From: Synechococcus sp. PCC 7335
GTDB lineage: Bacteria > Cyanobacteriota > Cyanobacteriia > Phormidesmidales > Phormidesmidaceae
Length of the DNA: 64,000 bases
Direction of reading: 5' to 3'
Assembly (NCBI RefSeq): GCF_000155595.1
Contig: NZ_DS989904.1
Span: 1,503,175-1,567,174 of the forward strand
Every line of letters begins with the position of its first letter. The first letter of the stretch is position 1. A program made the position numbers and the translations under genes. This document shows, piece after piece, positions 3,255 through 17,892 of the stretch. The notes beneath the pieces are model-generated. The model was not told where the DNA came from and searched no databases. It saw only the letters and a program-made list of their open reading frames with translations.

Positions 3255-3441
3255 CTACTAGGATAGAGCCCAAATCTGACTAAATTATGAAGATCTGGCT
3301 TTTTAGAACTAATTCTGTGGTCCAAAGATAGCCGCTCTACAATTTTGTTCTTAGCCTATGTTTCTATGGGCTAGATGAAGGTGTGCTAGATGAAGGTCCT
3401 TTGGAGACTGGTAGCGGTGCTAGCTCTTATCTTAGTGACGT

Positions 3442-13890: not shown

Positions 13891-14981
13891 GTGGTTACAG
13901 CGATGGATAAGGCGTTTGTTCGAGAGACTGCGGCTGTTGATAAAGTTGAGCAGATAGCCGAGCTCAAAGCGTTCATCCGTAAGGAACGAGATGCGCGTCA
14001 GGTGAAGAAGGCGCTGGCGGTCAAACTGTTGTACGAAGGGCACGGCTATCAAGGCGTCGTCGATGTTCTGAATGTATCGCTCGGCGCTATCAGCGAATGG
14101 AAGCAGTTGTACGAAGCGTCCGGGCTAGCTGGGTTTGTTCCCCAGCACAAGGGCAAGAAGAGCTTTCTAAGTGGTGCTGAGAAAGCAGCGGTGCTGGCTT
14201 GGCTAGGTAGCAAACGTATCTGGACGCTCGGCGAGCTAGAGAGTCATCTGGCAGAAGACTACGATGTGGTCTATGCCTCGAAACAGAGCTACTACGACCT
14301 GTTCGAGTCAGCGGGTATCACCTGGAAGAAGACAAGCAAAGTCAACCCGAAGGGCGATGCTGAGGCGGTGGCGGCAAAAAAGCCGACATCGAGCGCTGCT
14401 TGGCGCACTACCGAGACGAGATAGGGCGTGGGCAGCTCAGAGTGCTGTTCATGGATGAATGTCACCTGATGAGTGCTGACCTGGAAGGCTACGTTTGGGG
14501 TACTAGAGGTCAGCGCGTCGAGGTGCCGATTGTGAACGAACGCGACCGGCAAACTTACTACGGTGCGCTCGACTTGCTGAGCAAGCGCGTGTTGTTTGGG
14601 GCTTACGGCGCTGGCAACACGGCTAACACCATCGCCTACTTGCGGTACTTACAAGTGCAGTTCCCACAGCAAAGACTACTGTTGCTATGGGATGGGGCGA
14701 GCTACCATAGAGCTCATGAGATTCGAGACTTCCTAGCACGGACCAACGACGGCCTACCAGCGTCGCAGTGGCCGATTCACTGCATTCAGTTTGCGCCCAA
14801 CGACCCGACTCAGAATCCGATTGAAGATGTTTGGCTACAGGCAAAGAACAGTGTGCGACGATTGGCAGGACTGAAGCCATCATTCAAAGGCGTCAAGTTC
14901 TTGTTCGAGCAATTCTTGTCGCTGGAAGTCTTCGACTTTCCCAAGATGCACATGTACGGCTCGTTTTCACAAATCATCTAG
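13891..14981 (+). CDS. IS630 transposase, two frames joined by -1 frameshift
   Basis: Frame one (13891-14424, GTG start) encodes the N-terminal helix-turn-helix region (AVKLLYEGHGYQGVVDVLNV; SLGAISEWKQLYEASG). Frame two, continuing to 14981, holds the DDE catalytic domain: first Asp in LFMDECHLMS, second in LLLWDGASYHRAHE, and Glu in NPTQNP-like NDPTQNPIEDVWLQAK. A -1 shift on the heptamer at 14376-14382 joins them as AAKKADIERCLAHYRDE, giving about 363 residues, the normal size for IS630 transposases. All three acidic residues are present, so the enzyme could be active. The stop codon overlaps the right inverted repeat. Confidence 0.9.
14376..14382 (+). promoter_or_regulatory. Slippery heptamer A AAA AAG for -1 frameshifting
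   Basis: In the zero frame the codons read GCA AAA AAG, so the heptamer is in the correct phase for tandem -1 slippage. The two transposase frames overlap from 14400 to 14424 and read through only with this shift. Confidence 0.85.
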
Positions 14982-16040: not shown

Positions 16041-16078
16041 ATGAGAACTATATAACGAGCTCGTCATATAGTTCTCAT
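16041..16078. repeat. 38-bp near-perfect palindrome
   Basis: The two 19-base halves match at 18 positions and meet at the centre GAGCTC with no loop. The outer arm is ATGAGAACTATAT and its complement ATATAGTTCTCAT; the only mismatch is the A/G pair at the fourteenth position. It lies between the divergent hslO and histidine kinase genes, 86 bp from hslO and 168 bp from the kinase start. No T-run follows on either strand, so a cruciform or dimeric operator is as likely as a terminator. Confidence 0.8.
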
Positions 16079-16246: not shown

Positions 16247-17575
16247 ATGTTTTTACTGGTGGATTCTATTACTCCATATCTTCCGGTCTTGCTGGCTTTA
16301 GAAAACTTCATTATCTCTGGCTGCTACGCCATGATTGCGAGTGGTATTTCCTATGGTATTTGGCAAAACCGAAAAGCGGGCATCAATTCGGTTGTTGCGA
16401 CTATCGTTCTGATTTTCTCTAGCTGCGCCTTAGGACATGGAATGCAGGGTTTTGGAATGCTAGGGTTCGGTCAGTGGGCCAGAATTCAAACGCTATTTGA
16501 CCTTTTGACTGTCGCCGTCGCAATCCGGTTTGTAAGCTATTACGAAAGCTTTGGGGTGCTAGCTCAGATAGGGCAAATCGCGGCGGCAAATGTGGAGTTA
16601 GAGTCTGAAAATCTTTCTTTGCAAGAAGCACTATCGCAGCTAAAGCAGACGCAATCTCAGTTGATTCACGCAGAAAAGATGACTAGCTTAGGACAAATGG
16701 TGGCTGGTGTAGCTCATGAAATCAACAACCCAGTTAACTTTATTTATGGCAATCTAAAATTCGTTGAGGAACATACTTTTGATCTTCTCAATATCTTGAA
16801 GCTTTATCAAACCCTTTACCCTCAGACATCATCAAAGGTTGAAGCTACTGCTAAAGATAAAGATATAGATATCGATTTCATTCAAGCTGACCTGCCTAAG
16901 ATTTTATCTTCTATGACGATGGGAACCGAGCGCATTCGCGATATAGTGTTAGGCCTTCGCAACTTCTCTCGTAAAGATGAAGCAAAATATAAAGCTGTGA
17001 ACATCCACGAAGGTATTGATAGTACTCTACTGATTCTGCAGCATCGCTTGAACAATGGTCCAGAGCATCAAGCTATTCAGGTTATTCGAGAATATGGAAG
17101 TTTACCGCCAGTGGAATGCTACGCCAGTCAGATGAATCAGGTGTTTTTAAACCTATTAGCTAATGCCATCGATGCGATTGAATATGCCAACACCAGTCGA
17201 GCTCTAGAGGAGATGGAAACTAAACCCGGCCAGATTACGATTCGGACGGTAAGTCTCCTTCATAACCAGGTAACCATATCGATATTGGACAATGGATGTG
17301 GAATACCCGATAGTATCCGCACCCACATATTTGATCCCTTCTTCACCTCAAAAGATGTAGGAAAGGGCACTGGTCTAGGGCTATTTATCAGTCATCAAAT
17401 TGTAACCGAAAGCCACCATGGGGAGTTGGAATGTCGTTCTATCTTGGGTAAGGGTACAGAATTTACGATTCACATACCTATTATTCAAACTGTTCCAGGC
17501 AAAGTGACAAAGGTAACTGATCCTGCTGTTCACGCATTGACTCTATCGGAACGTCAAACGACGACCACCGGTTAG
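16247..17575 (+). CDS. Histidine kinase with divergent ethylene-receptor-like three-helix sensor
   Basis: A 442-residue membrane histidine kinase. Three helices (about 12-38, 49-73, 80-100) are followed by a coiled coil (112-145), a HisKA domain with the phosphorylated His157 in VAHEINNPVNFIYGNL, and a HATPase with N box (NLLANAIDAIEYA), G1 (DNGCGIPD), F box (FDPFFTSK) and G2 (GKGTGLGLFIS). The first two helices align without gaps to Arabidopsis ETR1 as I know it: Asn20, Tyr27, Ile30, Ala31, Phe57, Cys60 and His64 fall on ETR1 Asp25, Tyr32, Ile35, Pro36, Ile62, Cys65 and His69, a constant offset of five. The copper ligands Cys and His are kept; Asp25 and Pro36 are not. There is no GAF or PAS domain. 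The kinase call is certain, the sensor call inferred. No response regulator is adjacent. Confidence 0.9.
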   Translation: MFLLVDSITPYLPVLLALENFIISGCYAMIASGISYGIWQNRKAGINSVVATIVLIFSSCALGHGMQGFGMLGFGQWARIQTLFDLLTVAVAIRFVSYYESFGVLAQIGQIAAANVELESENLSLQEALSQLKQTQSQLIHAEKMTSLGQMVAGVAHEINNPVNFIYGNLKFVEEHTFDLLNILKLYQTLYPQTSSKVEATAKDKDIDIDFIQADLPKILSSMTMGTERIRDIVLGLRNFSRKDEAKYKAVNIHEGIDSTLLILQHRLNNGPEHQAIQVIREYGSLPPVECYASQMNQVFLNLLANAIDAIEYANTSRALEEMETKPGQITIRTVSLLHNQVTISILDNGCGIPDSIRTHIFDPFFTSKDVGKGTGLGLFISHQIVTESHHGELECRSILGKGTEFTIHIPIIQTVPGKVTKVTDPAVHALTLSERQTTTTG

Positions 17576-17826: not shown

Positions 17827-17892
17827 GAAGACCAGGCTTTTTAGATGATGGGTGGGAGTAGGTGATCAACCCATCTAAAAAGCCTGGTCTTC
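17827..17892. repeat. Long inverted repeat with perfect 21-bp arms
   Basis: Arms at 17827-17847 and 17872-17892 are exact reverse complements (starting GAAGACCAGGC and ending GCCTGGTCTTC) and enclose a 24-base loop in which a further GGG/CCC pairing is possible. No T-run follows on the plus strand. It lies 252 bp after the kinase stop. It may be a structured RNA, a bidirectional transcription barrier, or a small mobile repeat. Confidence 0.75.

Follow-up and report, generated by a model that had tools for sequence, protein, structure and literature searches.

The N-terminal membrane domain of a histidine kinase encoded in the window, by which we mean the whole stretch of 64,000 nucleotides that was analysed, raises two questions: is it related to the ethylene-binding domain of ETR1, and if so, what does it sense? 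In the parts of the literature that we drew on, plant ethylene receptors are thought to derive from the cyanobacterial ancestor of the chloroplast (PMC11819568, PMC6682694), and bacterial receptors are recognised by their likeness to the ETR1 domain together with seven ethylene-binding residues. Because three of the seven are changed here, proteins of this kind may be passed over, and the portions of papers reached by our literature search held no published account of the clade described below. The gene and its domains are as follows.

16247..17575, + strand: sensor histidine kinase gene, 442 amino acids (open reading frame with ATG start; ETR1_N-like three-helix domain, linker helix, HisKA, HATPase_c)
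16289..16546, + strand: ETR1_N-like membrane domain, residues 15-100 (PF25487 covers residues 15-93; also alignment A1; helix limits by eye)
16547..16687, + strand: linker helix, probable coiled coil, from sensor to kinase (read by eye; no Pfam domain)
16688..16774, + strand: HisKA phosphoacceptor domain, residues 148-176 (PF00512, E 6.4e-7)
16715-16717, + strand: predicted phospho-accepting His157 (from the H-box AHEINNP)
17126..17482, + strand: HATPase_c catalytic domain, residues 294-412 (PF02518, E 2e-24)

Both PF00512 and PF02518 score above their Pfam cut-offs, as the domain definition of a sensor histidine kinase asks. After the sensor, the Pfam scan of the 442-residue protein finds HisKA and HATPase-type domains and nothing else; sensor and kinase are joined without a GAF or PAS, which bears out the preliminary description of this DNA on that point. 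PAS and GAF are likewise absent after the sensor in seven of eight full-length relatives scanned with Pfam, the eighth (L126) having a PAS.

Homology of the input domain to the ethylene-receptor domain

When residues 1-118 were scanned alone, residues 15-93 matched the Pfam family ETR1_N (PF25487) with an E-value of 0.0019 and a score of 18.9 bits, below the curated cut-off of 27 bits. ETR1_N is the sole Pfam family found in these first 118 residues, so that the profile search for an unrelated family leaves the homology proposed earlier unrefuted. The evidence for that homology becomes stronger when relatives are considered together. All 14 members of an alignment of the query with 13 relatives (A1) match ETR1_N at an E limit of 10, the best at 1.9e-6, as do four of the six members of a second group (A4: L117, L126, L099-L101 and L127; E up to 10), and the clade member L117 reaches 31.4 bits, above the Pfam cut-off. 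At E 0.01, five of the eight full-length relatives match (L087, L090, L091, L094 and L126), with no match in L092, L096 and L098.

Profile-profile comparison with hhalign pairs the A1 profile with that of 12 canonical-type domains (A3) at a probability of 90.5% and a score of 41.4, aligning Cys60 with Cys65, His64 with His69 and Asp85 with Lys91. In controls, 100 permutations of columns within helix or loop segments gave a maximum of 22.8, and the reversed profile gave 8.8. The alignment as scored, before realignment, spans 55 columns only, and many matches of the family profile to canonical domains stop after helix 2. A combined profile (A5) reaches loci with ETR1_N scores of about 36-102 bits at E 4.5e-7 to 8.0e-6, among them G141:C5:185908 (E 4.7e-7; 101.8 bits). 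The single-sequence match, weak and under the cut-off, would on its own suit a chance likeness between hydrophobic hairpins, but the far lower scores of the permuted and reversed controls, the agreement of every A1 member and the existence of bridging loci practically refute this. We conclude that this input domain and the three-helix ethylene-receptor domain are truly homologous, though deeply diverged.

Searches against solved structures returned, for the canonical profile, three light-harvesting chains (E 0.005 to 0.52), which we took as hydrophobic chance matches, and for the family profile two chains only (E 0.73 and 1.8).

Residues of the core and the Asp91 clade

For the residue table, 116 matches were merged into 83 distinct domains, identical or overlapping copies being joined, and aligned with ETR1 using MAFFT. 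The truncated L093 and L201 are included in the counts, with gaps at their missing sites; the marginal matches L102 and L103 (E 0.008 and 0.009) were kept out, as was L004, whose weak ETR1_N match contains internal stops. Among L005-L084, a sensor-profile match (E limit 1) was obtained for L005 only, and the others, which had matched the kinase part of the query, were dropped. Twenty-five rows, the query included, carry Asp at the position of ETR1 Lys91 (the Asp91 rows), and it is to them that the following counts refer.

16304..16306, + strand: Asn20, ETR1 Asp25 position; Asn in 23 of the 24 clade rows reaching the site
16325..16327, + strand: Tyr27, ETR1 Tyr32 position; 24 of the 24 rows reaching the site
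16424..16426, + strand: Cys60, ETR1 Cys65 position; Cys in 23 of 25 rows
16436..16438, + strand: His64, ETR1 His69 position; 25 of 25 rows
16445..16447, + strand: Gln67 (CAG), ETR1 position 72; a second His in the other 24 of the 25 clade rows
16487..16489, + strand: Gln81 of helix 3, ETR1 Met87 position; 25 of 25 rows
16499..16501, + strand: Asp85 of helix 3, ETR1 Lys91 position; 25 of 25 rows

The seven residues to which the preliminary description drew attention (Asn20, Tyr27, Ile30, Ala31, Phe57, Cys60 and His64) are all present in the 442-residue protein, and their constant, gapless offset of five from ETR1 positions 25, 32, 35, 36, 62, 65 and 69 is confirmed. We take the ETR1 residues at these positions to be Asp, Tyr, Ile, Pro, Ile, Cys and His. 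Positions D25, C65, H69 and K91 agree with those given in PMC11819568. Like the ETR1_N domains of plants and of SynEtr1-like proteins, the domain is N-terminal and hydrophobic, has the gapless spacing of helices 1 and 2, and is followed by a histidine kinase; it keeps Tyr32, Ile35, Cys65, His69 and Thr94. It differs from ETR1 in having Asn for Asp25, Ala for Pro36, Phe for Ile62, Asp for Lys91 and Gln at the position of Met87, and it lacks the PHGHCYLW segment of the aligned canonical cyanobacterial domains. Four of the seven ethylene-binding residues (Tyr, Ile, Cys and His) are thereby kept, those at 25, 36 and 62 being changed, and by the seven-residue definition, applied to the sequence, the protein is not an ethylene receptor.

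Three further points of the preliminary description hold in part. It had the copper ligands retained, which is true of Cys and His, but Asp25, placed by PMC12643061 with Cys65 and His69 in the essential copper site of ETR1, is Asn. It had the acidic residue lost, which is correct for the Asp25 position itself, yet there is an invariant Asp on helix 3, Asp85. It also had the proline lost; Ala31 does stand at the Pro36 position, but this is not diagnostic because 12 of the 36 cyanobacterial Asp25-type domains have Ala there and one has Ser. Asp85, Gln81 and the second His of the clade (replaced by Gln67 here) are additions to that description.

According to PMC11819568, Asp25 of ETR1 is modelled as positioning His69 and pairing with Lys91, and mutation of Asp25 or Cys65 abolishes binding. 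The query does not have this pair, carrying Asn20 and Asp85 instead. None of the 36 Asp25-type rows (ETR1 excluded) has Asp at position 91, where 33 have Lys or Arg and three Thr or Ser; over the 83 rows, Asp25 is paired with Lys/Arg91 in 33, Asn25 with Asp91 in 23, and Asp25 with Asp91 in none. The remaining Asp91 rows have His at position 25 (L127) or are truncated before it can be read (L093). Position 62 is Phe in 25 of 25. In L096 and L098, which retain both His residues and the Asp, Cys60 is replaced by Gly; not all members of the clade can therefore have a Cys-based site. At position 72 the query alone has Gln; its codon, CAG at 16445-16447, is one base away from a His codon.

Asn25 by itself does not mark the clade, because 22 rows carry it without Asp91, four of them with Lys or Arg at that position (L121-L123 and L200) and 18 with an alignment gap, the L125 group among them. 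These Asn25-type ETR1_N domains resemble the query in Asn25, Cys and His, but they have Pro36 in 21 of 22, lack Asp91, His72 and Gln87, and in the tree they lie on the side of the canonical domains. As read from the alignment, the marker of the clade is Asn25, Asp91, Gln87 and His72 together. The A4 members share this Asn/His/His/Gln/Asp core, with His for Asn in L127; they differ from the query in a longer second loop and, in L126, the only one of them scanned with Pfam past the sensor, in a PAS between sensor and kinase.

Two other groups among the ETR1_N matches may be recorded here. The L125 group (L125, L159-L168 and L170-L173), with open frames mostly of about 640-673 residues, keeps Asn25, Tyr, Pro, Cys and His and seemingly has no charge at position 91, which is a gap in the MAFFT alignment and Val when aligned by eye without gaps, and for which we make no claim about charge. 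L190, L195 and L198 are short ETR1_N proteins (open frames of about 300 residues) with Asp25, Arg72 and Thr or Ser for Lys91.

In a tree from which columns 25, 72, 87 and 91 and the truncated L093 and L201 were omitted, 24 Asp91 rows form one side of a single branch of length 2.69, with support of 100/99 and recovery in 100% of 200 bootstrap trees. The tree is built on just 90 columns, its bootstrap had not fully settled and a long-branch warning was raised; we therefore make no claim about the root or the order of divergence.

Conservation among the Asp91 rows gathers on one face of each of the three hydrophobic stretches of the query sensor (permutation p <0.0002, that is 1/5000, then 0.0098 and 0.0006; helix limits set by eye). 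Asn20, Tyr27, Cys60, His64, position 67, Gln81 and Asp85 all lie within 60 degrees of the centre of the conserved face; the well-conserved Ser59 (106 degrees) and Gly63 (66 degrees) lie off that of helix 2. Helix 3 is the weak part of the alignment because its spacing varies, position 91 lying 19 to 27 residues beyond His69 in six sequences counted (22 in ETR1, 21 in the query). Support for its register comes from the Lys/Asp-x2-Thr anchor, from agreement between MAFFT and realigned hhalign, and from the Pfam match extending to residue 93. If the topology is that of ETR1, Asn20, Cys60, His64 and Asp85 would lie about equally deep, in the outer portion of the membrane. An AlphaFold2 model of residues 1-138 from two sequences (query and L005), with a pLDDT of 52.7 and a pTM of 0.28, is too weak to show which residues face one another.

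What the rearranged core may sense

We favour, with a probability of about 0.5, the reading that the protein is a membrane sensor kinase with a metal-binding Cys-His-Asp core, homologous to the ETR1 domain and not a tight binder of ethylene. The acid appears to have been relocated, Asp25 of helix 1 becoming Asn and Lys91 of helix 3 becoming Asp, usually with a second His after the C-x3-H pair. Cys60, His64 and Asp85, with Asn20, Gln67 and Gln81 nearby, would make up one polar core at about equal membrane depth that could bind a metal, most likely Cu(I). In simulations reported in PMC6586836, copper stayed on Cys65 and His69, and contact with Asp25 was infrequent. The helices would move in response to the metal or to a small ligand bound to it, and this movement could pass through the continuous linker helix to alter autophosphorylation of His157, from which the phosphate would go to a response regulator encoded elsewhere. 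Pfam (E 0.001) names no response regulator and no metal transporter among ten neighbours in the window. With three of the seven residues that ETR1 requires changed, tight binding of ethylene is unlikely, and because of the relocated acid and the Phe at Ile62 in the pocket the ligand would be a different one; it is plausible that something other than ethylene is sensed. Against a Cys-His-Asp metal core in this particular protein stands its lack of the clade's second His.

More tentatively, and with less confidence than we place in the metal core of this one protein, the clade may be a separate class of ETR1-related sensors in which a helix-3 carboxylate ligand and an added second His provide a novel metal site within the membrane that serves another signal, whether copper itself, a different gas or alkene, or redox state.

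Cys60 is less conserved than His64, Tyr27 and Asp85, being Gly in two relatives, and this opens an alternative in which there is no metal site at all and a pocket of Asn20, Tyr27, His64 and Asp85 responds to protons or quinones, so that the kinase reports the proton or redox state of the membrane. Hsp33, whose gene lies next to that of the kinase both here and in L005, is a redox-activated chaperone, and its position would suit such a role. We nevertheless regard this reading as rather unlikely, since the Cys is present in 23 of 25 rows and, among the stretches compared, Hsp33 is a neighbour in L005 alone.

It is less probable still that the domain remains a receptor for ethylene or a small alkene, with Cu(I) on Cys60 and His64 and Asp85 of helix 3 standing in for Asp25. 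Its Tyr, Ile, Cys and His are those of the receptors, the change at Pro36 need not matter given the Ala found there in Asp25-type domains, and Asn25 also occurs where a domain is canonical in other respects, L122 being an example. This has to be set against the loss of binding on mutation of Asp25 in ETR1, the uniform replacement of Ile62 by Phe, and a canonical domain already present in the same genome.

Loss of the second His in the query (Gln67) might be taken to mean that sensing has been given up and the domain persists as a structural membrane anchor and dimeriser; we consider this very improbable because an anchor would not need His64, Gln81 and Asp85, which are invariant in 25 rows from eight coded families.

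Distribution and gene neighbourhood

A search with the single protein (E <=0.01) gave matches in 20 of the 388 genomes sampled from the class, two of them marginal. Profile search of the class found matches in 24 of 388 genomes, at least 19 with the Asp91 type, spanning eight coded families, and five with other ETR1_N types; an overlapping second draw (completeness >=98) gave at least 33 of 387 at E 1e-5, canonical types included. As 12 candidates were scored per genome in these profile searches, the counts are lower bounds. At E 0.001 there was no match in 299 genomes of Pseudomonadota (the phylum of L070) or in 198 of the phylum of L067, titled Cyclobacteriaceae; eight assorted genomes gave none at E 0.01. 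These results, from other-phyla searches that ran without a positive control, suggest that the clade is restricted to cyanobacteria. Plasmids gave no match and viral contigs no relative.

The source genome also encodes a canonical ETR1_N domain (L002, G000:C1:3159647-3159934, 125.8 bits), which keeps D25, Y32, I35, P36, I62, C65, H69 and K91 and makes a natural internal control. The occurrence of a clade with a rearranged core in this phylum, here together with a canonical domain in one genome, offers a natural test of the residues that set copper and ethylene binding, and of the way in which sensors of the ethylene-receptor type diversified.

Neighbourhoods were compared over 14 stretches of 9-15.5 kb, L005 and 19 kb of the window, using open frames of at least 90 residues and blastp at E 1e-8. 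Apart from the kinase group, no group of open frames recurs in three or more stretches. The kinase gene is flanked upstream by Hsp33 and downstream by a geranylgeranyl-reductase-like gene, both on the opposite strand; both neighbours are common to L005 and occur in no other stretch compared. L005 comes from Cf. Phormidesmis sp. LEGE 11477, and its sensor is identical in sequence to that of L085, which belongs to a genome of the window's genus; on this ground we take the class to be cyanobacterial.

Some features of the surrounding DNA may be noted. Between Hsp33 and the kinase, upstream of the latter, lies a 19-bp inverted repeat with adjoining arms that are 95% complementary (16041-16078). 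Downstream of the kinase there is an inverted repeat whose perfect 21-bp arms are separated by 24 bases (17827-17892), to which 3289-3308 is a weaker match, with three mismatches over 20 bases. The transposase at 13891-14981 is split into two overlapping frames, a helix-turn-helix part followed by a DDE_3 part.
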